In this document: one piece after another, positions 5,127-20,400 of the stretch | How the letters are laid out: every line of letters begins with the position of its first letter | How positions within the stretch are numbered: position 1 is the first letter of the stretch | Source: Microlunatus flavus | Lineage (GTDB): Bacteria > Actinomycetota > Actinomycetes > Propionibacteriales > Propionibacteriaceae | DNA: 64,000 nucleotides | Assembly: GCF_900110855.1 (NCBI RefSeq) | Contig: NZ_FOFA01000002.1 | Coordinates: 558,001 to 622,000 of the forward strand | Direction of reading: 5' to 3' | The notes under the pieces: model-generated | Told to the model about the DNA's origin: nothing | Database searches by the model: none | What the model saw: only the letters and a program-made list of their open reading frames with translations | Position numbers and translations under genes: made by a program

Positions 5127-6233
5127 CTAGCGCCCGGGTGCGACGACGAGCTCTTCGAGGCGCTCGGCGAAGACCCTGCTCGAGTACAGGCCGTCGACCC
5201 GGCGGGCGGCCGCTGTTCCGAGGCGGTGGCGCTCGTCGGCGTCGACCAGGAGCTCGGTCACCGCTGCGGCGAAGGCGTCGACGTCTTCGGCCGGCACCAC
5301 CCGCCCGCCGTCGCCGACCTGCTGGGCGACCCCGCCGACGTCGAAGGCGACGACGGGTGTCCCGAGCAGCATCGACTCGAGCACCACGAGCGGGAACGGG
5401 TCGTCGCGCGACGGCAGCGTCGCGACGTCGAAGCGCCGCATGTGGGGGTACGGGTTGGTGGTGGGGCCCACGAACTCGGCCCCGGCCTCGTCGGCGCCGG
5501 GCACGGGTGCGGCGAGGTCGCCGAGCCACACGAAGCGCACGGCGCGCTGCGGCAGGGCCTCGCGCACCCGCCGCGCGACCTGGACCCACAGATCCGGGCC
5601 CTTGCGGTGCTCGACGCTGCCGCAGCACCCTACGACCAGATCGTCCGCCGCGTAGGGGCGGTCGGGGTCGAGATCGGCGAGCCGGGCGACGAGGTCGTCG
5701 TCCGGGACCGACGGCAGCAGCACCACCGCCTCCGGCGGCCTCCCGGTGAGGACGGCCAGGTCGGCGCGCACGCTGGGCGAGCAGGCCACGAGGGTGGTCC
5801 GTTCGAGCTCTGCCGCCGCGTGCTCGTGCCGGAGGAAGGAGGACGCCACCGCGCCGGACTCGTGCACGTGCAGCACACGAGGCAGGCGCAGCCACCGAGC
5901 CGGGCGCAGGTAGACGGCGGCCGCGGTCGAGTTGACGTAGACGAGACCGGGCCGGTGCCGCAGCAGCTCGAGCGCGGCGACCGCGGTGTCCAGCGCGAAG
6001 GTGACGCCGCGCAGGCCCCGTGTGCGTCGCAGCCGACGCCGCACGCGAGGCAGCGGTTCGACGGCCGCGGGTGCCGCTGTCCCGAGGTCGGCCATCAGCG
6101 GCCCGGGCAGGCGCGACAGCACCGCGACCTCGTGCCCGGCCTCCACGAGGTCGCGGGACACCATCGCGGCGACCCGGGGCGCACCGCTGCGCGACGCCTC
6201 GTGGCTGATGACAAGGACCCGCACGGGAGTCAC
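5127..6233 (-). CDS. Family 4 glycosyltransferase
   Basis: This 368-residue GT-B enzyme is the last gene of the eight-gene minus-strand operon. The N-terminal Rossmann domain has the Ser/Gly-rich acceptor loop SHEASRSGAPRVA. The C-terminal donor domain starts near GCCGSVEHRKGPDL (the conserved RKG-type phosphate contact) and carries DDPFPLVVLESMLLGTPVV, a recognisable form of the GT4 EX7E region with its second Glu intact. GTG 6233 overlaps the upstream stop by 4 nt. Members are retaining enzymes that use nucleotide-sugar donors on the cytoplasmic face. Donor and acceptor cannot be predicted. Confidence 0.82.
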   Translation of the reverse strand: MTPVRVLVISHEASRSGAPRVAAMVSRDLVEAGHEVAVLSRLPGPLMADLGTAAPAAVEPLPRVRRRLRRTRGLRGVTFALDTAVAALELLRHRPGLVYVNSTAAAVYLRPARWLRLPRVLHVHESGAVASSFLRHEHAAAELERTTLVACSPSVRADLAVLTGRPPEAVVLLPSVPDDDLVARLADLDPDRPYAADDLVVGCCGSVEHRKGPDLWVQVARRVREALPQRAVRFVWLGDLAAPVPGADEAGAEFVGPTTNPYPHMRRFDVATLPSRDDPFPLVVLESMLLGTPVVAFDVGGVAQQVGDGGRVVPAEDVDAFAAAVTELLVDADERHRLGTAAARRVDGLYSSRVFAERLEELVVAPGR

Positions 6234-7480
6234 CAAGTCCTGGCGTGCCGGAGGTCGTGCGCGGCCGCACGCAGCACGAGGGCACCGGCGTCGGTCAGCC
6301 TGCGCGGTAGCCCGGGCAGCTGGCGGAGCTCGGTCCGGTAGAGGGCTTCGAGCTGGTCGGCGCCGGCCTGCAGCCCGTAGCGCTGAACCTCGGCGTGCCC
6401 GAAGGCCGCGAGCTCGGCGCGGTGCACCGGGTCCAGCAGGCGCTCGAGCTGGTGGGCGAGGTGGCCTGCCGGGTCCGCAACCGGCTCCTCGCCGAAGAAC
6501 CCCTCGGTCGCGAAGTGCTCGCGGGTGCCGACGTCGAAGGTCGCGGCGTACCCGTTCTGGCCGAGCACGACGAGCGGGCGCGCGTGGGCCAGCGCCCGGA
6601 GCGCGGACCCGCCCATGCCGAGGGCGACGTCGGCGGCGTCGTAGGCCGGCCTCGGGTCCTGCCGGGAGCCGGTGAGAACGACGGCCGGGCGCCCGAGCCG
6701 CTCGTTCGCCGCAGCAGCCCGACCCGCGACCCGCTCGAACGCATCGCCGTCACCGACCACGACCAGCCGCAACGCGGGCAGGTCCAGGCGCTCGACCGCG
6801 TCGATGGCGTGCCCCAGCCCCTCTTCCTTCAGGTGAGCGTCCACGCGGCCGACCACCACGACCGCCAGCTCGTCGTCGCCGATCCCTACCTCGCGGCGGA
6901 AGCGGCGCCCGGCCTCCGGGTCGGCGGCATCGGCGTCGAGGTCGACAGGAGGCTCCATCAGCCAGACGTGGCGGCCCTGCATGCGCTCGGCCTCGTCGCG
7001 CAGCGACCTCGTGCCGAGGACGAGCGGCGTCCTCCGCGGCACGTAGGGGACGTTCTCCATCATCCAGTTGGTTACGACGGCCGACCGCGGCGTGGCCCCT
7101 GCGACCGCCATCGTCGCGGCGCGCCCGAGCCACGGCCCGAAGACGTGGACGACGTCGGCTGAGGACTCGAGCGCCAGTCGCCGGATCTGCCGAGCGCGTT
7201 CCAACGTCCCTGCGTGCTGGGGAAGGACTGTGGGCGTGAAGCCGGAGCGTTCCGCGTAGGGCAGCAGCGAGGTCTTGACCTGCTCGTCGATGGCGAAGAC
7301 CTCGACCCGGTGCCCGCGGGCGCGCAGCGTCCGGCCCAGGTCCAGGGCGTTGATCGGGCAGCCGCCCAGCGCGAGACCCTCCAGCCCGACCAGGACGCTG
7401 AGGCGGCGCCCGTCGTCCGCGGTGCCCGGACCGGCGGGCGTCGTGACGATAGAGGTCACGGGCTCGGACACCTGGGTCAC
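6230..7480 (-). CDS. GT4-like glycosyltransferase lacking a clear EX7E motif
   Basis: This 416-residue GT-B-type protein starts at GTG 7480, which overlaps the flippase stop by 4 nt. After a short variable lead it has VLVGLEGLALGGCPINALDL, the GG-type acceptor loop of GT4 enzymes. VVVVGRVDAHLKEEGLGHAI is the donor-domain start with the expected Arg/Lys. Where family members carry the paired glutamates, this one reads ALGMGGSALRALAHARPLVV, so neither catalytic-region Glu is in place. It may be a divergent active enzyme or a non-catalytic partner of the GT4 encoded next to it. The tight coupling shows that it is produced with the pathway. Confidence 0.72.
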   Translation of the reverse strand: MTQVSEPVTSIVTTPAGPGTADDGRRLSVLVGLEGLALGGCPINALDLGRTLRARGHRVEVFAIDEQVKTSLLPYAERSGFTPTVLPQHAGTLERARQIRRLALESSADVVHVFGPWLGRAATMAVAGATPRSAVVTNWMMENVPYVPRRTPLVLGTRSLRDEAERMQGRHVWLMEPPVDLDADAADPEAGRRFRREVGIGDDELAVVVVGRVDAHLKEEGLGHAIDAVERLDLPALRLVVVGDGDAFERVAGRAAAANERLGRPAVVLTGSRQDPRPAYDAADVALGMGGSALRALAHARPLVVLGQNGYAATFDVGTREHFATEGFFGEEPVADPAGHLAHQLERLLDPVHRAELAAFGHAEVQRYGLQAGADQLEALYRTELRQLPGLPRRLTDAGALVLRAAAHDLRHARTW

Positions 7481-9018
7481 GGGGCTGCGACCTCGCGCCG
7501 CGCCTGGAGCGCCCACCCGGGGACCCAGCCGGGCACGAACCGGTCGGGCAGCTGCCGCAGCGCCATGGGGGCGATGGCCAGCGCGTACACGACCCCTCCG
7601 GCGAGGCAACCCACGAGCAGGGCGAGCCAGGGCGTGGTGAAGGGCTGGCTGGCCAGGCGGGCCGCGGCCGCGGCGAGCGTCGCCGCCACCAGCGGCGCTA
7701 CCACGGCGCGCAGCAGCAGGAGAGGGTGCCGGCCGGTGGCTCGCACGACGGCGACGCCGTACGCCGGCACCGCGATCAGGCCGATGGTGACGACGTGCGC
7801 CCACGCCACACCACGCAGCCCCGCCCAGTGCTCTCCGAGCACCATGCCCGGGACGAGGACGACCACCCAGCCGAGCTGGATCAGCAGGAGCCGCACGGTC
7901 TGCCCGGTCGCGACCAGGACGTTCGCGAAAAGCAGCGAGAAGGCGTAGAGGGCACCGTAGCCGGCGAGGACCACGAGCACCGGCGCCGCCTCGGCCCACC
8001 GCGCGCCGAAGACGGTGTCGACCAGCGGGCGGGAGAGGGCGGCGCTGATCGCTGCGGTGGGGAGCGCGACGGCGGCCACGAGCCCCGTGGACGACGTCAG
8101 GGCCGCGCCGAGGCGTTCCCGGTCGTCGGCGACGCGGCCGAAGGCGGGCACGACCACGCTGTTGAGCACCGAGCCGAGGACGGCAGTGGACCAGTTCGCG
8201 ACGTTGAAGGCGATCACGTAGACGCCGATCTGCGCCGCGTCGACCAGCCGCCCGAGGATCATGTAGTCCGCGTTCAGCAGCGTCCAGTTGACCAGGTTGG
8301 CCAGCGACAGGGGCAGGCCGAAGCGCAGCAGCGGACGGACGACCTCACGGCGCCAGCGCGGCCAGTAGCGCCGCGACGTGCTGAGCACGAAGACGAGCCC
8401 GGTGGCGAGCTGCCCGACCACGCGCGACCAGGCGAAGGCGGTGGCGCCCCCGCCGTGCAGCGCCAGCAGGACCAGGAGCGGGTTGGCGACGAGGAACCCG
8501 ACCACGGTGCCGAGGAAGATCTTGTCCTGGCGGAACTCGCGGACCAGCTGGGCGCCGGGCACCGCGAACACGCCGGTGAGCACCAGGCACAGCGCGAGGA
8601 TGCGGATGGGCTGCGCGGCGCCGGGTTGTCCCAGTGCGGAGGCGATCAGCGGTGCGCCGCTCGCCATGAGCACCGCGATGCCGACGCTGGCCAGGATCGA
8701 GATCGAGGAGATGGTCGGAGCGATCTCCTCGGGCTCCAGCGGTGACCGCGCGACGGCCGAGGCCATCCCGAGCTCGGCGAGGCTCGCGACCACGAGGTAG
8801 ACGGCGAGCGCGACCGCGAAGATCCCGAAGTCCTCCTTCGACAGCAGCCGCGCGAGGATCGCCGTCACCGCCACGCTCGCGAACCGCATGGTGATGTTCG
8901 CCGCGAGCGCCCACGCCGCGCCGCGGCCCACCGACCGGGCGAGCGTGGGCTCCGCCGCGGCCGGTGCGTCCTGCGCCGACGGCGCCGCCGCCGTCGACGG
9001 CCCTGCGCCGTCGGTCAC
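7477..9018 (-). CDS. Wzx-like polysaccharide flippase (MOP superfamily)
   Basis: This 513-residue integral membrane protein has about 12-14 hydrophobic helices and the MOP-type start LARSVGRGAAWALAANITMRFASVAVTAILARLLSKEDFG (positions about 26-64). That GxxW...R...LAR-L-EDFG pattern is typical of the Polysacc_synt/MATE-like lipopolysaccharide flippases. It should translocate the undecaprenyl-linked oligosaccharide from the cytoplasmic to the outer leaflet, feeding the ligase/polymerase at 1676-2995. GTG 9018 overlaps the upstream stop by 4 nt. The N-terminal 25 residues are Ala/Pro-rich and probably disordered. Confidence 0.88.
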   Translation of the reverse strand: MTDGAGPSTAAAPSAQDAPAAAEPTLARSVGRGAAWALAANITMRFASVAVTAILARLLSKEDFGIFAVALAVYLVVASLAELGMASAVARSPLEPEEIAPTISSISILASVGIAVLMASGAPLIASALGQPGAAQPIRILALCLVLTGVFAVPGAQLVREFRQDKIFLGTVVGFLVANPLLVLLALHGGGATAFAWSRVVGQLATGLVFVLSTSRRYWPRWRREVVRPLLRFGLPLSLANLVNWTLLNADYMILGRLVDAAQIGVYVIAFNVANWSTAVLGSVLNSVVVPAFGRVADDRERLGAALTSSTGLVAAVALPTAAISAALSRPLVDTVFGARWAEAAPVLVVLAGYGALYAFSLLFANVLVATGQTVRLLLIQLGWVVVLVPGMVLGEHWAGLRGVAWAHVVTIGLIAVPAYGVAVVRATGRHPLLLLRAVVAPLVAATLAAAAARLASQPFTTPWLALLVGCLAGGVVYALAIAPMALRQLPDRFVPGWVPGWALQARREVAAP

Positions 9019-10154
9019 GATGCGGTCGACACCTCGGTCCGGACGCCGTGCGCGGCCACCGCTGCGCGGAGCGCCGCCACGACCTGCTCCTGCTGCGCCT
9101 GCGTGATGTGCGGGTAGAGCGGGAGCGACAGGATCTGGTCCGCGGCCTGCTCGGCGACCGGGAACGAGCCCCGCTCGAGGCCGAGGTCGGCGTACGCGCG
9201 GGTCAGGTGCACCGGGGTGGGGTAGTGGATGCCGGCACCGATGCCGGCCTCGTTGAGGCTGCGCAGGACGGCGTCGCGCTCGGCGACCCGGACGACGTAG
9301 AGGTGCCAGACGTCGACGTTGCCCTCGGCCGAGCGCGGGGCCCGGACGCCGTCGACGTCGGCGAGCAGGGTGGCGTAGCGGGCGGCGGCCTCGCGGCGCC
9401 GCTCGTTCCAGCCGGCCAGGCGGCGCAGCTTGGCGTTGAGCACCACGGCCTGGACGGTGTCGAGGCGGGAGTTCATGCCCACGACCTCGTGGTCGTACTT
9501 GCGCGCGGAGCCGTGGCTCGCGATGACCCTGATGCGCCCGGCCATCTCGCCGTCCTGCGTGGTCACGGCGCCGGCGTCGCCGGCCGCCCCGAGGTTCTTG
9601 CCCGGGTAGAAGCTCGTGCCCGCCACCGCTCCGAGGCTGCCGGCGAAGCGGCCGAACCGGGTCGCGCCCTGGGACTGGGCGGCGTCCTCGACGACCGGGA
9701 TGTCCCCGGCGACCTCGAGGACCCGCTCGACGGGGGCCACCTGGCCGAACAGGTGCACCGGGACGATGGCCTGCGTCCGTCCGGTGACGGCCGCGGCGAT
9801 CAGGTCGGGGTCGATGAGCAGGTGCTCGTCGTCGACGTCGACCAGCACGGGGACGGCGCCGATGCGCGAGATCGCCTCGGCCGTCGCGACGAAGGTGTTG
9901 GCCGGGATGATGACCTCGCCGCCGGCCCGGACCCCGACCCCGCGCAGCGCGAGCTCGACGGCGTCGGTGCCGTTGGCGACCCCGACGCAGTGGGCGACGT
10001 CGGTGGCCTCGGCGTAGGCCCGCTCGAACTCGCCCACCGGCTTGCCGCCGATGAAGGCGGTGGTCGCGAAGACCTCGTCGAGGCCGGCCATCACCTCCTC
10101 GTGGATCTCCTTCTGCTGCGCAGCGAGGTCGACCAGTGGAATGGCGGTGTTCAC
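9015..10154 (-). CDS. DegT/DnrJ/EryC1-family sugar aminotransferase (WbpE-like)
   Basis: This 379-residue PLP-dependent enzyme has IPLVDLAAQQKEI at its start, the NGTDAVELALRG cofactor-phosphate loop, VEDAAQSQGA with the Asp that contacts the pyridine nitrogen, and FYPGKNLGAAGDAGAV with the Schiff-base Lys. The LVDL start and the PGKNLGA lysine segment are typical of the WbpE/VioA-like subgroup that transaminates 3- or 4-keto UDP sugars. With a Gfo/Idh/MocA dehydrogenase and a hexapeptide acyltransferase in the same operon, the WbpB-WbpE-WbpD logic (keto-sugar, amino sugar, N-acyl sugar) is a natural reading. That route is inferred, not shown. GTG 10154 overlaps the preceding stop by 4 nt. 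Confidence 0.85.
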   Translation of the reverse strand: MNTAIPLVDLAAQQKEIHEEVMAGLDEVFATTAFIGGKPVGEFERAYAEATDVAHCVGVANGTDAVELALRGVGVRAGGEVIIPANTFVATAEAISRIGAVPVLVDVDDEHLLIDPDLIAAAVTGRTQAIVPVHLFGQVAPVERVLEVAGDIPVVEDAAQSQGATRFGRFAGSLGAVAGTSFYPGKNLGAAGDAGAVTTQDGEMAGRIRVIASHGSARKYDHEVVGMNSRLDTVQAVVLNAKLRRLAGWNERRREAAARYATLLADVDGVRAPRSAEGNVDVWHLYVVRVAERDAVLRSLNEAGIGAGIHYPTPVHLTRAYADLGLERGSFPVAEQAADQILSLPLYPHITQAQQEQVVAALRAAVAAHGVRTEVSTAS

Positions 10155-10840
10155 GAGAGGCTCCCCATCGAGGTGGTGTCGTAGGTCGTGCCGGTCACCG
10201 GGGTGGACTGGCGCGGTCGGGCCGGCACACCGACCCAGGTCTGGCCGTCGGGCAGGTCGGCGACCAGGGCCGCCCCCATCCCGAGGACCGCGTCGAAGCC
10301 GACCGTGGTGTGCTCCCGCACGCTGCTGTTCATGCCGAGGTAGGCGGCGCGCCCGACGCGCACGCTGCCCCCGAGGCTGACCCCGGCGCAGAGCGTCGCG
10401 AAGTCGGCCACGGAGTCGTCGTGGGTCAGCGTGACGTTCGGCATCGCCACGACATGCCTGCCCACGTTGACGTCCGTGGTGAGGACGGTACCGGCGAGGA
10501 TCACGCTGCCGCAGCCGATCCGACAAGTTCCCGGGACCGAGGCGCGCGGGTGCACGAACGTCGCGTACCCGTCCTGCGCGACCCCGAGCCGGGTGAGCCG
10601 CTCGACGATCGAGGCCCGGCTCGAGCCCTTCCCGGCGCAGACCAGGAACCGGGCGTCGAGGTGAGCCGCGGCCACGTCGAGCGTCCCCAGGACGGGGAAC
10701 CCGCCGACAGTCGTGCCCTGCAGGTTCGGCGCGTCGTCGAGCAGGCCGCGCACCTCGAACCCGCATCCGTCGTGGGCCAGCGCGGCGAGGACCTCGCGCG
10801 CGAGGCCGCTCGCGGCGACGAGGACGAGGGGGACGCTCAT
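10151..10840 (-). CDS. PglD-like sugar O/N-acyltransferase (left-handed beta helix)
   Basis: The protein has 229 residues. The N-terminal part (1-75) is a Rossmann-like domain beginning LVLVAASGLAREVL, as in the PglD/NeuD family. The C-terminal part (about 85-210) is a hexapeptide-repeat helix with turns such as GTCRIGCGSVILAG, VGRHVVAMPNVTLTHDD and VGRAAYLGMNSSV. The His of LTHDD stands where PglD-type enzymes hold their catalytic base. These enzymes transfer an acyl group, usually acetyl from acetyl-CoA, to an amino or hydroxyl group of a UDP sugar. Between two aminotransferase genes, N-acylation of a new amino group is the likely job. ATG 10840 overlaps the upstream stop by 4 nt. Confidence 0.82.
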   Translation of the reverse strand: MSVPLVLVAASGLAREVLAALAHDGCGFEVRGLLDDAPNLQGTTVGGFPVLGTLDVAAAHLDARFLVCAGKGSSRASIVERLTRLGVAQDGYATFVHPRASVPGTCRIGCGSVILAGTVLTTDVNVGRHVVAMPNVTLTHDDSVADFATLCAGVSLGGSVRVGRAAYLGMNSSVREHTTVGFDAVLGMGAALVADLPDGQTWVGVPARPRQSTPVTGTTYDTTSMGSLS

Positions 10841-11973
10841 GCCCGGGCGGCCTCGACGAGCACGTCGACCACCCGGCCCTGCTGCGTCTCGTCCATCTGG
10901 TGGAAGAGGGGCAGGATCAGCGTGGAGTCCGTGAGGTGCTCGGTGACGGGCAGCGAGCCGGGCGCGGCCACGCCGACGTACGGCGGCTGCCGGTGCGTCG
11001 ACATGATCCCGCGCCGCGCGGAGATGTCGGCGTGCGCGAGCCGCTCGAGCAGCCCCTCGCGGTCGAGCGGGTACGCGTCGCCGACCTCGACCCAGAAGGA
11101 CTGGAAGTTGCTCTCGCCCCACGCGGGGTCGATGACGGTGCGCAGCCCGGGGACCTCGGCGAGGAACTTCGTGTACGTCGCCGCCAGCTCGCGCCGGCGC
11201 GCCACGACCTCGGGCAGGCGCCCGAGCTGCACGATGCCGACCGCCGCCTGGAGGTCGGTCATGCGGAAGTTGTAGCCCACCTCGTCGTAGGTCTCGGGCG
11301 GCGCCAGCACGGAGGCGTGGCGGTCCGCGGCGGACACGCTCATGGCGTGCTCCCGGAGCTTGTGAGCCCGGTCCGCCCAGTCCTGCCGGGAGGTCGTGAT
11401 CATCCCGCCCTCACCGGTGGTGAGGATCTTGCGCGGGTGGAACGACCAGGCGGCGATCTCCGCGCCGGCTCCGACGGGCCGCCCGCGGTAGGTCGAGCCG
11501 GCGCCGCACGCGGCGTCCTCGATGACGGCGATCCCGCGGGGGTCGCACACCGCGCGGATCGCGTCGAGGTCGACCGGGACGCCGCCCTGGTCGACGACCA
11601 CGACGGCCTTCGTGCGGTCGGTCAGCTCGGCCTCGACCGTCTCCGGCGTGAGGTTGCCCGTGGTGACGTCGACGTCGGCGAAGACGGGCGTCGCACCGAC
11701 GTAGCGGACGGCGTTGGTGGTGGCGATGAACGAGAACGACGGCACGACGACCTCGTCGCCGGCACCGACGCCCACCACGACCATGGCGAGGTGCAGCCCG
11801 GTGGTGCACGAGGAGACGGCGACCGCGTGCTCGGCCTGCATCGACGCGGCGAACAGGCGCTCGAACTCGGCCACCCGCGGGCCCTGGGCCACCCAGCCCG
11901 AGCGGAGGACCTCGGCGACCGCCTCGACCTCCTCCTCGCCCAGGTAGGGGAGCATCACGTTCACGCGGCTCAT
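10837..11973 (-). CDS. Second DegT/DnrJ/EryC1-family sugar aminotransferase
   Basis: This 378-residue PLP enzyme belongs to a different subgroup from the gene at 9015. It opens with VNVMLPYLGEEEVEAVAEVL, has the cofactor loop SSCTTGLHLAM, VIEDAACGAGSTY with the pyridine Asp, and WSFHPRKILTTGEGG with the Schiff-base Lys. The SFHPRK-TTGEGG version is common in enzymes that aminate the C4 position of UDP-4-keto sugars (PglE/ArnB-like). Two aminotransferases with one acyltransferase suggest a di-amino sugar or two separate amino sugars. ATG 11973 overlaps the epimerase stop by 4 nt. Confidence 0.86.
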   Translation of the reverse strand: MSRVNVMLPYLGEEEVEAVAEVLRSGWVAQGPRVAEFERLFAASMQAEHAVAVSSCTTGLHLAMVVVGVGAGDEVVVPSFSFIATTNAVRYVGATPVFADVDVTTGNLTPETVEAELTDRTKAVVVVDQGGVPVDLDAIRAVCDPRGIAVIEDAACGAGSTYRGRPVGAGAEIAAWSFHPRKILTTGEGGMITTSRQDWADRAHKLREHAMSVSAADRHASVLAPPETYDEVGYNFRMTDLQAAVGIVQLGRLPEVVARRRELAATYTKFLAEVPGLRTVIDPAWGESNFQSFWVEVGDAYPLDREGLLERLAHADISARRGIMSTHRQPPYVGVAAPGSLPVTEHLTDSTLILPLFHQMDETQQGRVVDVLVEAARA

Positions 11974-13019
11974 GCCATGGCTCCGGCCGGCTCGGGGGTC
12001 GTGTCGTCCTGCGCGTCCTTGCCGGGGTCGTTGCCCAGGGCCTTCTCCGAGCGCCACCAGTCGACGAGCTGACGCAGCCCCTCGTCGAGGCCGATCTCGG
12101 CGGTGAAGCCGAGGTCGCGGGTGGCGGCCTCGGTGCTGGCCAGGCGGCGGGTGACGCCGTTGACCGGGCGGTCCGGACCGTGCTCGACGCCGAGGTCGGA
12201 CCCCATCACCGCGAGAAGGCGCTCGGCCAGCTGCAGCAGCGAGGTCTCCTCGCCGCGGGCGACGTTGTAGACGCCCTCGGCGATCGGGCTCGCCGCCGCG
12301 AGCAGGTTGGCCCGGGCGATGTCGGTGGTGAAGACGAAGTCCATCGTCTGCGCACCGCTGCCGAAGATCAGCGGCGGCTTGCCGTCGACGATGCGCTCCA
12401 TCCAGCGGATCAGCACCTCGGTGTAGAGCCCATGGATGTCCATCCGCGGGCCGTACACGTTGAAGTAGCGCAGGGCGACGTAGTCGAGGCCGGACATCGC
12501 CCGGAAGCTGCGGAGCATGCCCTCGTTGAACGTCTTGGCCGCGCCGTAGAAGGTGTCGTTGTCGTACGGGTGCTGGTGCTCGGTCGTCGGGAACTCCTCG
12601 GCGAGGCCGTAGACCGACGCCGATGAGGCGGCGACGAGCTTGCCGACCTTGTGCTGGGCAGCCGCCTCGATGACGTTGAACGTCCCGTCGACGAGCACCT
12701 CGAGGGCCAGCCGGGGCTCCTCGGCGCACTGCGTGATCCGGATGGCGGCCTGGTGGAAGACGACGTCCGCGCCCCGGGTCAGGTCGTTGACCAGGTCGCG
12801 GTCGCGCAGGTCGCCGACCACGAGCCGGACGCGCGGGTCGTCGAGGACGCCGCGGAGGTTGGCCCGTCGGCCCCGGACGAGGTTGTCGAGGATGCGGACC
12901 TCGCCGGCCCCGGCCGCGAGCAGCTGGTCGACGATGGTGGAGCCGATGGTGCCGGCGCCGCCGGTGACGAGCGTGGTCGCGCCACGCAGCCCGTTGTCGG
13001 GCAGCTCGGGGGCGATCAC
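11970..13019 (-). CDS. NAD-dependent nucleotide-sugar epimerase/dehydratase (extended SDR)
   Basis: The enzyme has 349 residues. TLVTGGAGTIGSTIVDQLL holds the GxxGxxG dinucleotide motif, VFHQAAI follows the second strand, SSASVYG supplies the active-site Ser, and YGAAK is the YxxxK catalytic pair. LRYFNVYGPRM is the substrate-side loop of UDP-glucose/GlcNAc 4-epimerases. It could be a 4-epimerase (WbpP/GalE-like) or a 4,6-dehydratase. The FNVYGPR loop favours the epimerase side, but the substrate is not decidable here. GTG 13019 overlaps the dehydrogenase stop by 4 nt. The C-terminal 25 residues are a polar tail outside the fold. Confidence 0.85.
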   Translation of the reverse strand: MIAPELPDNGLRGATTLVTGGAGTIGSTIVDQLLAAGAGEVRILDNLVRGRRANLRGVLDDPRVRLVVGDLRDRDLVNDLTRGADVVFHQAAIRITQCAEEPRLALEVLVDGTFNVIEAAAQHKVGKLVAASSASVYGLAEEFPTTEHQHPYDNDTFYGAAKTFNEGMLRSFRAMSGLDYVALRYFNVYGPRMDIHGLYTEVLIRWMERIVDGKPPLIFGSGAQTMDFVFTTDIARANLLAAASPIAEGVYNVARGEETSLLQLAERLLAVMGSDLGVEHGPDRPVNGVTRRLASTEAATRDLGFTAEIGLDEGLRQLVDWWRSEKALGNDPGKDAQDDTTPEPAGAMA

Positions 13020-14071
13020 GCGACGAGCTCGCGGTCGGCGACGGTCGCGCCGTCGGTCCGGACCGGCCCACCGCTGGCGAGGCTCGCGCTGGCGGCCTCG
13101 AGGACGGACAGGACGCGCAGGCCCGAGCGGCCGTCGGTCTGCGGCGCGCGGCCCGCCTCGATGGCGGCGGCGAACTCGGTCGCGACGCCCGCGAGGGCCT
13201 CGGTCTCCTTCAGCGCCGGGACGACGACGTCGCCCATCCGGTACGAGACGGTGACGGCCTCGCGGCGGGCTGCATCGGCGGCCTGCGTACGCAGGTCGAC
13301 GCCACGGTCGTGGATCGAGATCCGCTGGGCCGGGTTCATGTCGTCCCACACGAGGGTCCGGCGGCTGCCGCCGATCACCATCTGGCGGATCTTCGTGGGG
13401 GACAGCCAGTTCACGTTGATGTGGGCGATCCCTCCGTTGCCCAGCGGCAGCGTCAGGTAGCCGACGCAGGCCTTGCCCGCGCCGAGCGGGTCGGCCCCGC
13501 TCGCGGTCACGGTCTCCGGGCGCAGCCCACCGGGCAGGATGAAGTCGAGGATCGACAGGTCGTGCGGCGCCAGGTCCCAGAAGACGTCGACGTCGGGCTG
13601 CACGAGCCCGAGGTTGATCCGCGTCGAGTCTACGTAGAGCACCTCGCCGAGCTCGCCGGCGGCGATCACGTCGCGGATCCGCTGGACCGCCGAGGTGTAG
13701 CAGAAGGTGTGGTCGATCATCAGCACCTTGCCGGCCGCGTCGGCGGCGCTGACCATGAGTGCCGCGGTCTCCGCGTTGTCGGCCAGCGGCTTCTCCACCA
13801 GCACGTGCTTGCCGGCCTCGAACGCGGCGAGCGCGAGCGGGGCGTGCGTACGGGCGGGCGTCGCGATGGCGACCGCGTCGATGTCGTCACGGGCGAGCAG
13901 CCGCTCGACCGAGGTCTCGACCTCGACCGTGGAGCGCGACCCGACGACCTTGCGGGCGCGCTGCTCGTCGAGGTCGCAGACGGCGACCAGGTCCCAGGCC
14001 GGGTTGGACCGGAAGTTGCGGATCAGGTTCGGACCCCAGTAGCCCGCGCCGATGACGGCGATCGAGAACAT
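13016..14071 (-). CDS. Gfo/Idh/MocA-family sugar dehydrogenase (WbpB-like), first gene of the operon
   Basis: The enzyme has 351 residues. FSIAVIGAGYWGPNLIRNF is the NAD(P)-binding start with a GxGxxG variant. VLVEKPLADN is the EKP catalytic-lysine motif, and WDLAPHDLSILDF carries the catalytic-region His. The GYWGPN and DLAPHD signatures are common in the WbpB/WlbA-like group that oxidises C3 of UDP-N-acetylglucosaminuronate or related sugars. It is the promoter-proximal gene of the eight-gene operon, with a GGGGGAG ribosome site just before ATG 14071. Only 108 nt separate it from the stop of the giant gene upstream, so read-through from that gene is possible. Confidence 0.87.
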   Translation of the reverse strand: MFSIAVIGAGYWGPNLIRNFRSNPAWDLVAVCDLDEQRARKVVGSRSTVEVETSVERLLARDDIDAVAIATPARTHAPLALAAFEAGKHVLVEKPLADNAETAALMVSAADAAGKVLMIDHTFCYTSAVQRIRDVIAAGELGEVLYVDSTRINLGLVQPDVDVFWDLAPHDLSILDFILPGGLRPETVTASGADPLGAGKACVGYLTLPLGNGGIAHINVNWLSPTKIRQMVIGGSRRTLVWDDMNPAQRISIHDRGVDLRTQAADAARREAVTVSYRMGDVVVPALKETEALAGVATEFAAAIEAGRAPQTDGRSGLRVLSVLEAASASLASGGPVRTDGATVADRELVA

Positions 14072-14179
14072 CTCTCCCCCAGAGGTGTCAGGTGGTGCTG
14101 TGCTGATGTGCGGCTCGGCCGACGTGCGGCCGTGCGCGGCGATGTGCTAAGTGTGCGGCAGATCGAGCGTGTCGGCAGG

Positions 14180-17100
14180 TCAAACGGAGACGAGCACGTC
14201 CACCCAGTAGTTCGTCGAGCTCGCGTTGGTCGGGAAGACGTCGCCGAAGCCGGTCCGCGCACCCGAGGCCGGAACGCTCAACGGCCCGGAGGTGTACGCG
14301 GACGAGTACCCGGAGGTGGTGGTGGACCAGTTCCCGGCGGGCGCGTAGTAGCTGGCGGTGTAGGCCGTGCCGGCCGTGATCGAGATCGGTGTGGCGAACG
14401 TCGCGGTGCGCCACCCCGTCCCGGTCTGCGTGGTGGTGGCACTGCCCAGCACGGCGCCGCTGCTGGAGTACAGCTTCACCGTCTTGCCGGTGTTCGTGGA
14501 CGCCGCGTAGTAGCGGATCGCCGTCACCTTCCCGTCCCGGCTCGAGGAGAACTGGACGCCCAGCGTGGACGTCGTGGTGCTCGTCGAGGTGGCGCTCGGG
14601 GTCCGGGTGGTCGTGTACAGGCTGAAGGTCTGGGCGGCCGTGGTGAAGGACCAGGTGACGGGGCTGGCCATCGGCACGCCGGAGGTGTTGCTCGCGCTGA
14701 CCGAGGCCGTGTAGCTCGTCGAGCTGGTGAGGTCCGACGTCGGGTTGAAGGTCGCCGTCCGGGTCGTCGCGCTGTAGCTGACGGCGCCGGGCACGGTCGT
14801 GCCGCTCGCCGACTTGAGCGTGACGGCGAGCGTGCCGCTGTTGATGGCGCGGGCGAAGGTCGCGGTCACGTTCGTGGACGCGGCGACGTTCGTCGCCCCG
14901 GCGGCCGGGCTCTTCGCGCTCACGCTGGGCTGGTCGGTGTCGGCGGTGGTGAAGGACCAGGTCGTGGGGCTCGTCATCGCCACGCCCGACGTGTTCTTCG
15001 CGGTGACCGACGCCGTGTGGCTCGTGAAGCTGGCGAGCGCCGACCCGGGCTTGAACGTGGCGGTCCGGCTCGTTGCGTCATAGGTCGTCGTGCCCGCGAC
15101 CGAGGCGCCGGCGCTCGTCTTGAGGGTCAGCACCACGGAGGCAGGGTCGATGGCGCGGGCGAAGGTCGCCGTCACCGAGGTGCCCGCACCCACCCCCGTC
15201 GCGCCGGCGGCGGGCGAGGTGCTCGACACCGATGGCGCTGCGGCGTCGGCGGTGGTGAAGGTCCAGGTCGTCGGCGCGGTCATCGCCACGCCGGAGACGT
15301 TGGAAGCCGTGACCGACGCGGTGAAGCCGGTCAGGCTGGCCAGCGCAGCCGACGGGGTGAAGGTCGCGGTGCGCGTCGTGGCGTCGTAGGCCGTCGTCCC
15401 CGCCACAGCGGCGGACGTGGCCGTGTTCTTGACGCCCAGCACGACCGAGGTGGGGTCGACCGCCCGGACGAAGCTGGCCGTGACCTTGGTGGTCGGAGCG
15501 ACCGCGGTGGCCCCCGGCGCGGGGCTCGTGCTCGCCACGCTCGGCGGGTCGGTGTCGGCCGTGCTGAAGGTCCACGTCTTCGGGGCGCTCATGCTGATGC
15601 CCGAGGTGTTGCGCGCCGAGACCGAGACCGTGTAGCCGGTGTTGCTCGCGAGCGCGCTGCCCGGGCTGAACGTCGCCGTGCGGGTCGTGGCGTCGTACGT
15701 GGTGGCGCCCGGCACGACCGTGGCGTCACTGGTCCGCGACACGGTGAACAGCGCCGACGCAGGGTCGATGGGCGAGGCGAAGGCGGCGGTGACCTTGGTC
15801 GACGTCGGCACGCCGCTGGCCGCGTCGGCAGGGCTGACGGTCGTGACCGTCGGCGGCTGCGTGTCGGCGGTGGTGAAGGACCAGGCCTTCGGGCTGGCCA
15901 TGGCGACCCCGGAGGCGCTCGAGGCGTTCGCCGTCGCCGTGTAGACCGTGGCTCCGAGCAGCGGGCTCGCCGTGGTGAACGTGGCGGTCCGGCTGGTGGC
16001 GTCGTACGCGACCTGACCCGGGACGGCGGCACCGCCCTGGTCCGCCAGCGCGAGCTGGAGCGAGGCCGGGTCGATCGCGGCGCTGAACGTCGCCGTGACG
16101 GCCGTCGTGGTCGCCACGCCCGTCGCGTCCTTGGCCGGGCTCGTCGAGCTCACCGTGAGCGGCGCGTCGTTGTTGGTGTCGAAGACGACGTCGACGTAGT
16201 AGTTCGTGTTCGCGTACGTCTGGTTGGGGAAGCCGTCCCCGTAGTGGTAGACGCTGCTCGGGTCCACGCTCTTGAGCGGGGTGTTGGTCACCGGGCTCGC
16301 GAAGTAGTTCAGGTCGGCCGAGTAGTGCCCGTTGGGCGCGTAGTAGGCCGCGACGTAGGTGGTGCCCGCCGTCACCGGGACGGTGCTGGAGAAGCTGGCG
16401 GTCTGCCATCCGGTGCCGTTGTCGTCGAACGTGAGGTCGGCGAGACGGTCACCGGTCGCGGAGTACAGGGTGCCGGTGTGCGTGCCCGTGTTGCTGGCGT
16501 CGCGCCAGTAGCGCAGGCCCTTGACGTAGCCGTTCGTCGTCGGGGTGAACTTCAGCCCGAGCGTCACCGCGTCCTTGTCGCCGGAGTCGCCCTGCGCCGG
16601 CTGGGTGGTGGTCTTCAGCAGCGAGCACGGGCACGCGGCAGCGCCGGAGGTGGTGAAGGTGAAGGTGACGCTCCCGCTCATCTTGGCGCCGTCGGCGCTG
16701 ATCGCGCCGCTGACGGTGGCCGAGTACTTCGCGCCCGGGTCGAGGCTGCTGGAGGGGACGAAGGTCGCCGTCGAACCCTGCGACTCCGTGCCGTTGTTGC
16801 CGGCCACGGTCGCTCCGTCGGAGATCCGCTTCACGACGATGGTCGCCGACCCCGGCTGGATCGGCACACCGAACATGACCTGCACCTTGTCGTCCACCGG
16901 CACCGAGGTCGCCCCGTTGCCCGGGGAGGTCGACAGGACCGTGGGGCGGACGCCGGCCGGGGTGAAGACCGGGTCGACGAAGTAGTTCGCCGACGACCCG
17001 CTCGTCGGGGCGGCGCTCGCGGTGTAGGTGTAGCGGCCGCCGTTCGCGGGCGTGCTGAGCGGTCCGTTCGTCAGCGAGCCGGAGAGCCCGTTCGCCGTGT

Positions 17101-20100
17101 AGCCGTAGCGCCCGTTCGACGTGTACGAGACGACGTAGGTGGCGCCCTTGGTGACCTGCTGGGGCGCGGAGAAGGTGGCCTGCTGCCAGCCCATGGAGGA
17201 CTCGGTGGTGGTGACGGCCTCGGCCACCTTGGTCGTGCCCGACCACAGGTCCACGGTGTGCGGTCCGACGTCCTCGAACCGCTTGTAGAAGCGCACGGCG
17301 GACACCTGGCCGTTCTGGGAGGCGACGAAGGCCGTGCCCAGCTTGACACCCGGGGCGTCGTTCTCCGGCCCGGTCACCGGCTGGTCGGTGTCGTTGAAGA
17401 GGGTGCACGGGCAGTCGTTCGGGATGCCGTCGGGGTCGACGGTCGTGAAGCTCCACTGGGTCGGCGCCGCCAGCGTGCTCGCGTTCACGGTGACCGTGTA
17501 GGTGGTGCTCGTGCCCAGCCCCTGCGCCGGGTTGAACGTCACCTTGGTGTTCGTCGAGTCCCACGTGGTCGTGCCCGGGATCAGGTTCTGCGCGGCGTCG
17601 ACCACCTGCAGGGTCACCGACGCGGGGTCGATCGGCTTGGAGAACGTGGCGGTGACGAGCGAGGTGGTGGCCACCGAGCTGGCGCCGGCCTTCGGTGCCT
17701 GCGCGACGACGGTCAGCGGGCTGGTGTCGGTGAGCGAGAACACGGGGTCGACGTAGTAGTTCGTCTGGCGGTACGAGGTCGACGGGAACGCCGCGCCGTT
17801 CGCGAAGACACCGTTGTCCACGCCCGCACCGCCGGCAGCGGTGAGGTTGCCCGCGTTGAACGAGCGGGTGAAGAAGTAGGAGTCGGCGGAGTAGTGGCCC
17901 TTGGGCGCCGAGTACCCGGCGACGTAGGTCGTCCCCGGCTGCACGGCGACCGGCTTGTCGAAGACCAGCGTCTGCCAGCCGCTGCTGGTCTCGTTGGCGA
18001 AGACGCCCGCCGCCAGGATCGCCCCGCCCGAGGAGTAGAGCGTCCCGGTGTGGGAGCCGGTGTTCGCCGACGACTTGTAGAAGCGCACGCCGCTGACGAA
18101 GCCCGCGGTCGACGTCGTGAACTTCGTCCCGAGCGTGACCGCGTCGGTGTCGCCCGAGTCGACCTGCTTGGGCGTGGCCACGCCGAAGAGGGTGCACGGG
18201 CAGGCCGAGTTCACGGCGACCGAGACCGGTGCGGAGGTGCGCGCCGAGTCGTCGGTCGCCCGCACCTGCACGGCGTTGGCGCCGTTGCCCGTGAGGATGC
18301 CGGTGTAGGACCAGGTCGTGGTCCCGTCGGCGGGGTGGAAGCTGGCTCCGCCGTCCACCGACACCTCCACGCCGGCCACCTGGCCGCCGACGTCGCTCGC
18401 CGTGCCGCTGACCGTGAGCAGCGAACCCTCGGAGAGGTCCTTGCCCGCGGTGGGGGACACGATGCTGACGGTCGGCGGGGTGATGTCGGTCGAGGGCGTC
18501 ACGGCCGCGATGCCGGGAGCCGGCGTCGTCGCAGGCGCCGACATGTCGGTGAGGACGTTGATGGTCGCCTGGCGCATCCGCGGGTCGGCGGTCGTCGCCG
18601 CGCCGTCGTGGGCGGAGTCGAGCCCCCAGGACCACTGGATGGTGCCCGCGGAGAACACCAGCGCCCCGCTGGCCGCGCGGTAGAGGGTGATGTGGTGCGT
18701 CGTCGTGCTCGGCTGCACCTGGTTGCCGAAGTCCATCAGGTACTCGGGCGTGCTCCCCGTGGCCGTCGACATGCGGATCAGCCCTGCGGGTCGGGAGCCG
18801 TTGTCGACGTCCTCGTTAGACTCGTAGCCGACGGTGTGGTCGCTCAGCGAGGCGGTGGTGCCGCTCGGGAGCGAGGCCAGGGCGCTTCCCCGCCAGATCC
18901 GCAGCTTGCCCTCGGCCGAGCTGACCTGGATCGGGAAGTCGTCGAAGTTGGCCTGGTACTGCGTGCCGATCAGGGCGTTCTCGGGGCCGTAGCCGTAGCC
19001 GAGGTCGCCGAAGCGGGGGTCGCGCCAGGTGGCCTGGACGTCGGTCCCGGGTCGGTCGATCCGCTTGTTCGCCCAGGTGTCCTTGTAGTCGACCAGGGTG
19101 CGGTTGGGCGTGCTGGTCCCGTCCTGCGAGGGCTCGAGCAGGGTCTTCCAGTAGACGTCGTTGCCGCCGAAGAAGGCGAGGTTGACCTTGGCGTCGCGCG
19201 CGTCGGTGACGTTCTTGCGCTGGCTCGCCGTCCAGTACTCGTCGTGACCCACCGACAGGAAGACCTTGTGCTTCGGCAGCAGGGCCGGATCGGTCGCCAC
19301 GTCGATGCCGGAGACGTAGGAGACGTCGACGCCGTTCTGCTCGAGCGTCCTCAGCATCGGGTACTCGTTGGAGAACAGGAAGTCGCGACCGGAGTTGTAT
19401 CCCCGCGTCGAGTACGGGCGGTTGTAGCTCAGCTTGTACGCGCGTCCGTTGGCGCCGCCCTGGTAGAAGTTCGACCCCCCGTACATGTTGTAGGCCTGCC
19501 ACGTCGAGTCCGAGGTCTGGAAGACGGCCGCCGACGTGTTGCCGTCGTTCCGGACGACGAAGGGGATGTGGGAGTCGCCCTTGGTGTCGCTACGGATCAG
19601 GCGCGCGATGTAGACGCCGGAGACCGAGGTCGAGGGCACGTTCCAGGAGGCGGAGACCGCCCAGGTGCCGCAGTCGACCAGCTGGGTCGAGTCGTCGGTC
19701 GCGCACGGCGCCTGGGTCTGGGGCAGGGGCACCGAGGGGGAGATGGTGGTCACGAGCCGGGCACCGTTGCCCTGGTACCAGCCCAGTCGGTAGATCTCCA
19801 CGGTGTAGGCGCGTGCGTCGGTGTCGATCTTGAAGTCGATGCGCGACCCGGCGTTGACGCTGGTCGCGGTGGCGAACCCCTGGATGCTGGTGTCGCCGAC
19901 GCCGTCCACGTCCCAGACGCTCTGCGGGGTGCCCGGGAGCTGGTTCTCGCACACGATCGCGTTGCCGCTGCACGCGGCCGCGGCCCTCTCGGCCGGCAGC
20001 ACGAGCACCGACGCGACCATCGCCAGGATGATCGCCGCCACGACGGTCCAGCGCCGCTTGACCGTGCGCGCCGTCGACGACGACAGCGTTGCGTGCTCGT

Positions 20101-20113
20101 AGGTCCTCGTCAT
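14180..20113 (-). CDS. Giant secreted protein: DMFase-like domain plus DUF4082 and Big_5-type repeats
   Basis: This 1977-residue exported protein has a long basic lead and a hydrophobic segment at about 25-42, ending in an AAA-type signal-peptidase site near 45. Residues about 50-540 resemble the C-terminal domain of the N,N-dimethylformamidase large subunit, with motifs such as EIYRLGWYQG, KLSYNRPYSTRG and LSVGHDEYWT. An Ig-like unit follows (about 545-635). Four DUF4082 units lie at about 636-793, 897-1050, 1158-1315 and 1826-1977; the first three begin with a CPC pair. Between them are seven Big_5-like units, five in tandem near 1316-1825. There is no LPXTG, membrane anchor or dockerin. 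The DMFase family hydrolyses amide bonds in an iron-dependent way, but activity here is untested. Its place beside the polysaccharide operon suggests a surface-polymer role, which is inference. Confidence 0.8.
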   Translation of the reverse strand: MTRTYEHATLSSSTARTVKRRWTVVAAIILAMVASVLVLPAERAAAACSGNAIVCENQLPGTPQSVWDVDGVGDTSIQGFATATSVNAGSRIDFKIDTDARAYTVEIYRLGWYQGNGARLVTTISPSVPLPQTQAPCATDDSTQLVDCGTWAVSASWNVPSTSVSGVYIARLIRSDTKGDSHIPFVVRNDGNTSAAVFQTSDSTWQAYNMYGGSNFYQGGANGRAYKLSYNRPYSTRGYNSGRDFLFSNEYPMLRTLEQNGVDVSYVSGIDVATDPALLPKHKVFLSVGHDEYWTASQRKNVTDARDAKVNLAFFGGNDVYWKTLLEPSQDGTSTPNRTLVDYKDTWANKRIDRPGTDVQATWRDPRFGDLGYGYGPENALIGTQYQANFDDFPIQVSSAEGKLRIWRGSALASLPSGTTASLSDHTVGYESNEDVDNGSRPAGLIRMSTATGSTPEYLMDFGNQVQPSTTTHHITLYRAASGALVFSAGTIQWSWGLDSAHDGAATTADPRMRQATINVLTDMSAPATTPAPGIAAVTPSTDITPPTVSIVSPTAGKDLSEGSLLTVSGTASDVGGQVAGVEVSVDGGASFHPADGTTTWSYTGILTGNGANAVQVRATDDSARTSAPVSVAVNSACPCTLFGVATPKQVDSGDTDAVTLGTKFTTSTAGFVSGVRFYKSSANTGSHTGTLYSSGGAILAAGVFANETSSGWQTLVFDKPVAVQPGTTYVAGYSAPKGHYSADSYFFTRSFNAGNLTAAGGAGVDNGVFANGAAFPSTSYRQTNYYVDPVFSLTDTSPLTVVAQAPKAGASSVATTSLVTATFSKPIDPASVTLQVVDAAQNLIPGTTTWDSTNTKVTFNPAQGLGTSTTYTVTVNASTLAAPTQWSFTTVDPDGIPNDCPCTLFNDTDQPVTGPENDAPGVKLGTAFVASQNGQVSAVRFYKRFEDVGPHTVDLWSGTTKVAEAVTTTESSMGWQQATFSAPQQVTKGATYVVSYTSNGRYGYTANGLSGSLTNGPLSTPANGGRYTYTASAAPTSGSSANYFVDPVFTPAGVRPTVLSTSPGNGATSVPVDDKVQVMFGVPIQPGSATIVVKRISDGATVAGNNGTESQGSTATFVPSSSLDPGAKYSATVSGAISADGAKMSGSVTFTFTTSGAAACPCSLLKTTTQPAQGDSGDKDAVTLGLKFTPTTNGYVKGLRYWRDASNTGTHTGTLYSATGDRLADLTFDDNGTGWQTASFSSTVPVTAGTTYVAAYYAPNGHYSADLNYFASPVTNTPLKSVDPSSVYHYGDGFPNQTYANTNYYVDVVFDTNNDAPLTVSSTSPAKDATGVATTTAVTATFSAAIDPASLQLALADQGGAAVPGQVAYDATSRTATFTTASPLLGATVYTATANASSASGVAMASPKAWSFTTADTQPPTVTTVSPADAASGVPTSTKVTAAFASPIDPASALFTVSRTSDATVVPGATTYDATTRTATFSPGSALASNTGYTVSVSARNTSGISMSAPKTWTFSTADTDPPSVASTSPAPGATAVAPTTKVTASFVRAVDPTSVVLGVKNTATSAAVAGTTAYDATTRTATFTPSAALASLTGFTASVTASNVSGVAMTAPTTWTFTTADAAAPSVSSTSPAAGATGVGAGTSVTATFARAIDPASVVLTLKTSAGASVAGTTTYDATSRTATFKPGSALASFTSHTASVTAKNTSGVAMTSPTTWSFTTADTDQPSVSAKSPAAGATNVAASTNVTATFARAINSGTLAVTLKSASGTTVPGAVSYSATTRTATFNPTSDLTSSTSYTASVSASNTSGVPMASPVTWSFTTAAQTFSLYTTTRTPSATSTSTTTSTLGVQFSSSRDGKVTAIRYYAASTNTGKTVKLYSSSGAVLGSATTTQTGTGWRTATFATPISITAGTAYTASYYAPAGNWSTTTSGYSSAYTSGPLSVPASGARTGFGDVFPTNASSTNYWVDVLVSV
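14632..16170 (-). repeat. Five tandem Big_5-like (Ig-fold) protein repeats of about 102 residues
   Basis: Inside the giant secreted protein, five consecutive units of about 306 nt encode the same pattern. Each begins with a P-V-S/TSP-A-GA/V block, continues with VTATFA-AIDPAS, then YDATTRTATF, SALAS-T-YTASV-ASNTSGVAMA-P and WTF/SFTTAD. DNA identity between units appears high, consistent with internal duplication. Such Ig-fold arrays usually act as stalks that hold enzymatic or binding domains away from the cell. Confidence 0.8.
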
Positions 20114-20400
20114 GCCGCCGCCCCCCGGTCGGAATCCACCGCCGCAGGACGGTGTCCCGCCGCCCCCCGCGGCAGGTCCCGGGCGGCGCCGTCCACCGGG
20201 GACGCTCGTGGAGACGAGCGAGGTCGGTGGCCGTGCAGGCCGGGCTCCGAGAAGACTAACGGCCCATTCTCAGGAACGCGGGTGAAGCAAGAATTGCCTG
20301 AGAGCGACCTGCGCGTGTAGGTCCTTCACCCGCCACCCACCACCCGGCGTACGAGCGAGGTCGCAGCGCGAGCAGCGGCTCCTCGCAGGTGGCCGGGGCG
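20114..20400. other. Intergenic region upstream of the giant gene
   Basis: No gene is visible in this 287-nt stretch. It lies between the lipoprotein gene (stop at 20401) and the giant gene (start at 20113), both on the minus strand. A 10-bp perfect inverted repeat (GCGGGTGAAG at 20278-20287 with CTTCACCCGC at 20324-20333) encloses a smaller GACCT/AGGTC stem (20306-20310, 20319-20323). This may end the lipoprotein transcript, although no T-run follows. A G-rich ribosome site precedes ATG 20113. A TAGTCT hexamer on the minus strand near 20255 could be a -10 element, with weak support. Confidence 0.35.

Follow-up and report, generated by a model that had tools for sequence, protein, structure and literature searches.

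A secreted-looking dimethylformamidase-family protein of Microlunatus flavus and its linkage to an amino-sugar polysaccharide gene cassette

Introduction

N,N-dimethylformamidase (DMFase) of Paracoccus cleaves small formamides, and its structural description (PMC7686228) presents the iron site of an enzyme of solvent degradation whose folds have no known origin, where Y399, Y440 and E521 of the large subunit (6lvb) are the iron ligands, H519 is essential and N547 lies in the active site. A second solved relative (8i5a, 8huy) is named N-acetyl-(R)-beta-phenylalanine acylase and would thus, by its name, act on an amino-acid substrate; the literature searched yielded no paper on it. Here we report on a 64,000-nucleotide stretch of the genome of Microlunatus flavus (contig NZ_FOFA01000002.1, positions 558,001 to 622,000 of the forward strand; hereafter, the window) and on one of its genes, encoding a 1977-residue protein (hereafter, the giant protein) in which a DMFase-like domain is joined to a long array of immunoglobulin (Ig)-like, DUF4082 and Big_5 units. 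A first-pass annotation made from the sequence had described the DMFase family as known from solvent degradation, a description that the existence of the acylase shows to be too narrow.

Unlike DMFase, the giant protein looks secreted and carries the Ig/DUF4082/Big_5 array, for which the 776-residue chain of the acylase is too short. The architecture is already known to annotators, database records being named either "DUF4082 domain-containing" or "N,N-dimethylformamidase beta subunit family domain-containing". Our literature search found no role for proteins so built, met DUF4082 as a table entry and DUF6605 not at all, and found nothing joining dimethylformamidase with exopolysaccharide or with "phenylalanine acylase". 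The explanation that we favor, tentatively and at somewhat less than an even chance, is that the giant protein is a secreted, probably iron-dependent N-deacylase that puts the finish on the exopolysaccharide its own gene cluster produces. The CE4-type exopolysaccharide N-deacetylases PgaB, IcaB and PelA perform the job proposed here on secreted amino-sugar polymers, with a fold and a metal site that differ from those of the DMFase-like domain.

Results

Architecture of the giant protein

The gene is an unbroken, ATG-initiated frame of 1977 codons on the minus strand (14180-20113), with GC fractions of 0.54, 0.60 and 0.97 at codon positions 1, 2 and 3, respectively. An open frame of 2336 codons on the opposite strand (13310-20320) was treated as a high-GC shadow frame; no Pfam family was matched by the plus strand of 14180-20110 translated in one frame. 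Searched against Pfam, the giant protein matched DMFA2_C (PF20254) over residues 104-501 with 323 bits (cut-off 27; E 4e-96), DUF4082 (PF13313) in four stretches totalling 470 bits, above cut-off, and Big_5 in seven stretches with 346 bits. These scores are far beyond chance. Pfam and self-comparison place the units as follows:

14180..20113, minus strand: giant protein, 1977 residues, ATG start (open frame and Pfam)
19973..20113, minus strand: signal-peptide-like N-terminus, approximately residues 1-47 (read by eye)
18524..19966, minus strand: DMFase-like unit, approximately residues 50-530, PF20254 proper being residues 104-501 (Pfam and profile)
18278..18475, minus strand: Big_7 Ig-like unit, residues 547-612 (Pfam, 37.9 bits)
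17750..18178, minus strand: DUF4082 unit 1, residues 646-788 (Pfam and self-comparison)
17441..17731, minus strand: Big_5 unit 1, residues 795-891 (self-comparison)
16976..17386, minus strand: DUF4082 unit 2, residues 910-1046 (self-comparison)
16649..16954, minus strand: Big_5 unit 2, residues 1054-1155 (self-comparison)
16193..16606, minus strand: DUF4082 unit 3, residues 1170-1307 (self-comparison)
14639..16174, minus strand: Big_5 units 3-7, five consecutive units over residues 1314-1825 (Pfam and self-comparison)
14201..14605, minus strand: DUF4082 unit 4, near the C-terminus, residues 1837-1971 (self-comparison)

From the N- to the C-terminus, the DMFase-like and Ig-like units are thus followed by three DUF4082 units, the first two each trailed by a single Big_5 unit and the third by five, and the protein closes on the fourth DUF4082 unit. 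Together, the Ig, DUF4082 and Big_5 units cover 1327 of the 1977 residues. The N-terminus, read by eye and without a predictor, consists of KRR, a hydrophobic run and AAAA; it looks like a signal peptide, as the first-pass annotation had held, and the protein may accordingly leave the cytoplasm. Inspection of the C-terminus, also by eye, revealed no obvious anchor. The domain anatomy proposed at first pass was reproduced by Pfam and self-comparison, to which we add the coding strand. CopC was also matched, in two stretches (61.7 bits; cut-off 23.3). Because the best of these, residues 1059-1152, coincides with a Big_5 unit, a genuine copper domain was set aside, although not disproved.

The DMFase-like domain and its putative iron site

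Queried with the single sequence, the PDB did not return DMFase. A profile built from 50 sequences (the window's protein and 49 relatives; 492 positions), in contrast, recovered the acylase as the best PDB match (E 2.9e-25, at residues 337-753 of its chain) and the Paracoccus DMFase large subunit with E 3.6e-23, its best stretch covering profile positions 93-486. Together with the Pfam match to PF20254, sequence comparison shows that the giant protein belongs to the DMFA2_C/DMFase large-subunit family, as had been proposed at first pass. The five DMFase residues named above (PMC7686228) each find a counterpart:

19490..19492, minus strand: Y208, counterpart of the DMFase iron ligand Y399 (profile alignment; ligand from PMC7686228)
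19463..19465, minus strand: Y217, likely counterpart of the iron ligand Y440 (S-x-Y pattern and alignment to the acylase 8i5a)
19238..19246, minus strand: H290-D-E292, counterparts of the essential H519 and of the iron ligand E521 (alignment; PMC7686228)
19160..19162, minus strand: N318, counterpart of N547 (profile alignment)

The HMMER register sets Y435 of DMFase, rather than Y440, opposite Y217. We nevertheless take Y217 as the likely counterpart of Y440, because the ATY motif of the acylase aligns directly to Y217 and Y440 of DMFase shows the same S-x-Y pattern. In the printed alignment, the Tyr, Tyr, H-x-E and Asn positions of the acylase and the giant protein agree by eye. Y208, Y217, H290 and E292 are identical in all 50 aligned rows, that of the window's protein included, and N318 in 49 of them. 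In a wider set of matching segments, duplicates included, the first four residues were all kept in 118 of 121; the exceptions are second domain copies at two loci (L094 and L099) and a fragment (L084). Both second copies lack the catalytic His as well as one iron ligand each, and an intact copy is also present at both loci.

Thus, the Tyr/Tyr/Glu ligands sought on the suggestion of the first-pass annotation are all present in the giant protein, together with the essential His, and a loss of the metal ligands is ruled out at the level of sequence comparison. Judged by sequence, the DMFase-like domain seems to be a complete amide-cleaving unit that depends on iron. That the giant protein is itself a dimethylformamidase is not established, the pentraxin domain II of DMFase (residues 74-337) having no counterpart in it. 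Pfam reported no pentraxin there, and the alignment covers residues 3-31 of DMFase, which by themselves carry no significance, and then 337-764, leaving residues 32-336 unmatched.

Linkage to a polysaccharide cassette in Actinomycetes

The giant gene heads a six-gene cassette, beyond which lie glycosyltransferase-like proteins and a Wzy-like protein:

13016..14071, minus strand: Gfo/Idh/MocA sugar dehydrogenase, first gene after the giant gene, 108-base gap (family match, conserved neighbor)
11970..12986, minus strand: NAD-dependent sugar epimerase, UDP-glucose 4-epimerase-like, approximate start
10837..11943, minus strand: DegT aminotransferase 2, PseC-like (below the NCBIfam cut-off), approximate start (family match)
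10151..10831, minus strand: NeuD/PglD/VioB-type sugar N-acetyltransferase, above the NCBIfam cut-off, approximate start (family match)
9015..10121, minus strand: DegT aminotransferase 1, QdtB/WbpE-like, approximate start (family match)
7477..9018, minus strand: Wzx-type polysaccharide flippase (family match)
5127..6236, minus strand: GT4-like glycosyltransferase
1676..2995, plus strand: Wzy/O-antigen ligase-like protein

The best NCBIfam match of the dehydrogenase is UDP-N-acetylglucosamine 3-dehydrogenase, far below the cut-off of that family. The cassette is composed like a biosynthetic route to some N-acylated amino sugar that enters an exported polysaccharide. On its other flank the giant gene has dxr, an M50 peptidase gene and ispG. 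A mobile-element reading was set aside because of the polysaccharide genes on one side and this gene trio on the other.

To place this neighborhood in the class, 246 genomes of Actinomycetes, that of M. flavus included, were scored for the dehydrogenase (E up to 1e-80) and for a long form of the domain, defined as PF20254 in an open frame encoding 1000 residues or more; the PF20254 counts rest on most of the matches, and so hold among the matches listed. PF20254 itself is common, with 111 of the 246 genomes carrying it in some form, whether secreted or not. The dehydrogenase was found in 28 genomes, the long form in 29 and both in 23, a co-occurrence with a Fisher p of 3e-22, kinship ignored. 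In every one of these 23, the two genes share a contig and are no more than 25 kb apart; in 20, they are on the same strand at a distance of up to 7 kb.

A second sample comprised the flanks, at most 10 kb long, of the best 80 of 575 relatives from genome contigs. Dehydrogenase, epimerase and PseC-like aminotransferase were all present in the flank of 22 of these loci, the dehydrogenase lying downstream on the same strand in 20 and upstream in two (L038 and L080); the epimerase at three loci (L044, L049 and L075) is just 37-38% identical to that of the window. DUF4082 was carried by all 22 proteins with the cassette vs. 20 of the 58 others.

In the tree, of which only the branching was used (the operon labels of L005 and L007 were assigned unchecked, and L010, from genome G043 with a dehydrogenase, is labelled "other"), none of the 11 labelled short forms falls within the long-form clade, and the sequences of rhizobia are separate from the main clade of actinobacterial long forms. 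At five of 12 short-form loci inspected by eye, the PF20254 protein lies near apparent purine-synthesis genes (L120-L122) or enolase (L127 and L128).

A CE4 deacetylase gene (PF01522) is found at L117:5958-6617 in the cluster of a genome of the same genus (G018), the one place where it was sought; deacylation by another enzyme thus exists in such clusters. Away from the cluster, the window also encodes a member of glycosyl hydrolase family 6, a cellulase family (28874-30214, plus strand).

A second DUF4082 protein in the cluster

DUF4082 was detected in 42 of the 246 genomes, in 39 of them above cut-off. In 16 of the 28 dehydrogenase genomes, M. flavus included, a second DUF4082 frame of less than 1000 residues lies within 40 kb of the dehydrogenase. 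The M. flavus protein (L116:12376-13890), encoded about 5 kb before the start of the window, has a Thr/Pro linker. Each of the four second proteins inspected, out of 16, has one DUF4082 near its N-terminus and a C-terminal half that resembles, by eye, a right-handed beta-helix, for which neither Pfam nor the PDB gave a match in these four proteins. In one case (L118), a separate Beta_helix protein (26.4 bits; cut-off 25.9) adjoins the second DUF4082 protein. We sought a solved relative of DUF4082 and found none; short WD40 matches look spurious. Since two secreted-looking proteins of one polysaccharide cluster share DUF4082, binding of this domain to a polymer or to the cell surface is suggested.

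Linkage in Rhizobium and neighbors elsewhere

Plasmid-borne proteins of Rhizobium and Arthrobacter, recorded under the two annotators' names given above, are approximately 46-62% identical to the giant protein over the domain, and those of Rhizobium often adjoin the same sugar cassette. On plasmid p7 of Rhizobium binae, the dehydrogenase is 45% identical to that of the window, the epimerase 62% and the aminotransferases 49% and 43%. This plasmid and Rhizobium leguminosarum CB782 each have the dehydrogenase, the epimerase, two aminotransferases, two acyltransferases, polysaccharide genes and two DMFA2/DUF4082 proteins. The stalk of the R. binae protein is composed of He_PIG, Big_9 and cadherin-like units and, unlike that of the giant protein, has no Big_5 match.

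Plasmid records were compared when present in both of two lists of matches (best 60 of 150 and best 60 of 120). Dehydrogenase and domain lie within 15 kb of each other in 42 of the 43 Rhizobium records so retained, and near opposite record ends, probably across the circular start, in the remaining one. The 43 records, all closely related, amount to few independent events. Distances of 16-30 kb separate the pair in Sinorhizobium terangae, Sinorhizobium chiapasense and Rhizobium sp. CC-CFT758. Alphaproteobacteria thus repeat the actinomycete linkage in part.

Other copies of the domain have different neighbors. Three from Arthrobacter/Paenarthrobacter lie beside copper genes and one from Methylobacterium beside heavy-metal genes (L109, L112, L113 and L111), the neighbors being CopC or an RND pump and, in three of the four, a P-type ATPase with lspA; no polysaccharide genes are annotated in the stretches shown. 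The copies of Rhizobium sp. T136 and of a Bradyrhizobium adjoin neither cassette nor metal genes. A CobW-type GTPase gene lies 3′ of the DMFA2/DUF4082 gene on plasmids of R. binae (L115:14728-15912) and Bradyrhizobium sp. 195 (L114:15727-16974); CobW proteins are often metal chaperones. From these neighbors, a link of DMFA2/DUF4082 proteins to metals is conceivable.

Discussion

The cassette would make an N-acylated amino sugar, the Gfo/Idh dehydrogenase, the epimerase and the two aminotransferases placing amino groups, one of which the NeuD/PglD-type enzyme would acylate; export of the polymer would follow. Once outside, Y208, Y217 and E292 of the giant protein's DMFase-like domain would coordinate Fe(III), and the domain, with the help of H290, would hydrolyze selected amide groups (N-acetyl or N-formyl) of the polymer. 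Anchoring of the enzyme to the polysaccharide or to the cell surface would be the task of the DUF4082/Big_5 array. The first-pass annotation had suggested an extracellular amide-cleaving or carbohydrate-acting enzyme. The carbohydrate side of that suggestion gains independent support from the cassette linkage seen in two phyla, in Actinomycetes and in Rhizobium, and from the second DUF4082 protein of the cluster; extracellular amide cleavage is what we infer from the signal-peptide-like N-terminus and the conserved ligands.

A number of observations weigh against a deacylase dedicated to the polysaccharide of its own cluster. According to PMC7686228, DMFase showed no activity on acetamide and its large subunit alone was inactive. 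Among the 80 relatives, 58 have no cassette in the flank examined. Among the matches listed in the class set, five of the 28 dehydrogenase genomes lack the long form (G062, G074, G132, G178 and G199), G132 and G178 having no PF20254 match at all and the assemblies of G062 and G074 being in 230 and 380 contigs; conversely, six of the 29 long-form genomes lack the dehydrogenase. Short PF20254 forms of approximately 450-570 residues, too short for the array, sit at other loci (12 loci, by eye). In Rhizobium, the acyltransferases match the NeuD/PglD enzyme of the window weakly, and the translocase gave no match to the flippase at 1e-3. The pair shares a plasmid at a distance of about 80 kb in Microvirga ossetica and of 786 kb in Sinorhizobium sp. 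B11; among Sinorhizobium plasmid records, 36 match the Rhizobium dehydrogenase vs. five that match the domain. Out of eight annotated plasmid regions with the domain, two have the cassette (L115 and L133), four lie beside metal genes and two beside neither. Finally, among the 115 neighbor proteins of 21 non-actinobacterial loci (first 25 families, no background set), no sugar-nucleotide or glycosyltransferase family counts more than three, and type-1 secretion parts (ABC, HlyD and C39) reach four to five.

The giant gene is linked to the predicted synthesis of an N-acylated polymer, although not always. In Sinorhizobium meliloti, pSymB (L132) holds the six-gene cassette together with rhamnose and export genes, and 29 kb searched there gave no DMFA2 and no DUF4082 match; therefore the cassette does not need the giant protein, at least in this organism. 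This cassette adjoins a gene for an Ig-like protein and three integrase genes, and its cluster includes a right-handed beta-helix protein. The interrupted-looking Ig-like gene was considered as a giant-gene remnant, and a search with the two profiles found none. Given the 58 loci without the cassette, the metal-gene neighbors and the short forms elsewhere, we conclude that the DMFA2 domain itself is general and that its link to polysaccharide is a property of the long form.

In an alternative reading, the giant protein is an active secreted amidase that acts not on the cassette's polysaccharide but on amino sugars of the cell wall, on peptides or on small amides from the environment, its gene lying beside the cassette since both serve the cell surface. 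Conservation of the ligands across the family sample, the placement of the short forms of other Actinomycetes, the S. meliloti cassette and the four plasmid copies beside metal genes all agree with it. The tie of the long, DUF4082-bearing form to one cassette in both Actinomycetes and Rhizobium exceeds what a general surface role would lead one to expect, and we hold this reading to be unlikely, if worth keeping in view. The bulk of the array, the second DUF4082 protein of the cluster and a Rhizobium relative annotated as "adhesin" would suit instead a mainly structural Ig/DUF4082 fiber tying the polysaccharide to the cell, or cells to one another, with a DMFase-like head that binds sugar or metal without turnover. 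A mere fiber would not need the catalytic His and all the ligands that are so strictly conserved, and the two whole relatives that have lost such residues are second copies; a mainly structural role is judged somewhat less likely still.

It would also be conceivable that the domain acts on the polysaccharide by chain cleavage, transacylation or some other modification. The ThuA/glutamine-amidotransferase-like fold serves several chemistries, and the right-handed beta-helix, which the second DUF4082 protein resembles by eye, is common in lyases and epimerases. The core of DMFase domain III is described as ThuA/glutamine-amidotransferase-like (PMC7686228). Both solved relatives with the same residues are, however, named amide hydrolases, and the beta-helix reading has neither a Pfam match in the four proteins inspected nor a PDB match; another chemistry is held to be the most improbable of the explanations considered. 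Returning to the N-deacylase, its strongest form would be a new class of exopolysaccharide N-deacylase, extracellular, with an iron(III) site of two Tyr and one carboxylate, acting on a polymer of di- or tri-amino sugars, with DUF4082 as the polymer-binding module common to two secreted proteins of the cluster and the enzyme kept with the cassette in Actinomycetes and Rhizobium; so complete a claim is doubtful.

The iron-site residues of a solvent-degrading enzyme recur in a family spread over nearly half of the actinomycete genomes compared (111 of 246), one long subfamily of which is tied to a polysaccharide cassette. Should this link prove true, DMFA2_C would gain a candidate natural substrate and DUF4082 a candidate role, and it would be apparent where to seek a new route for N-acyl removal from biofilm polymers. 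In M. flavus, the giant protein may trim the sugar coat built by its own cell.

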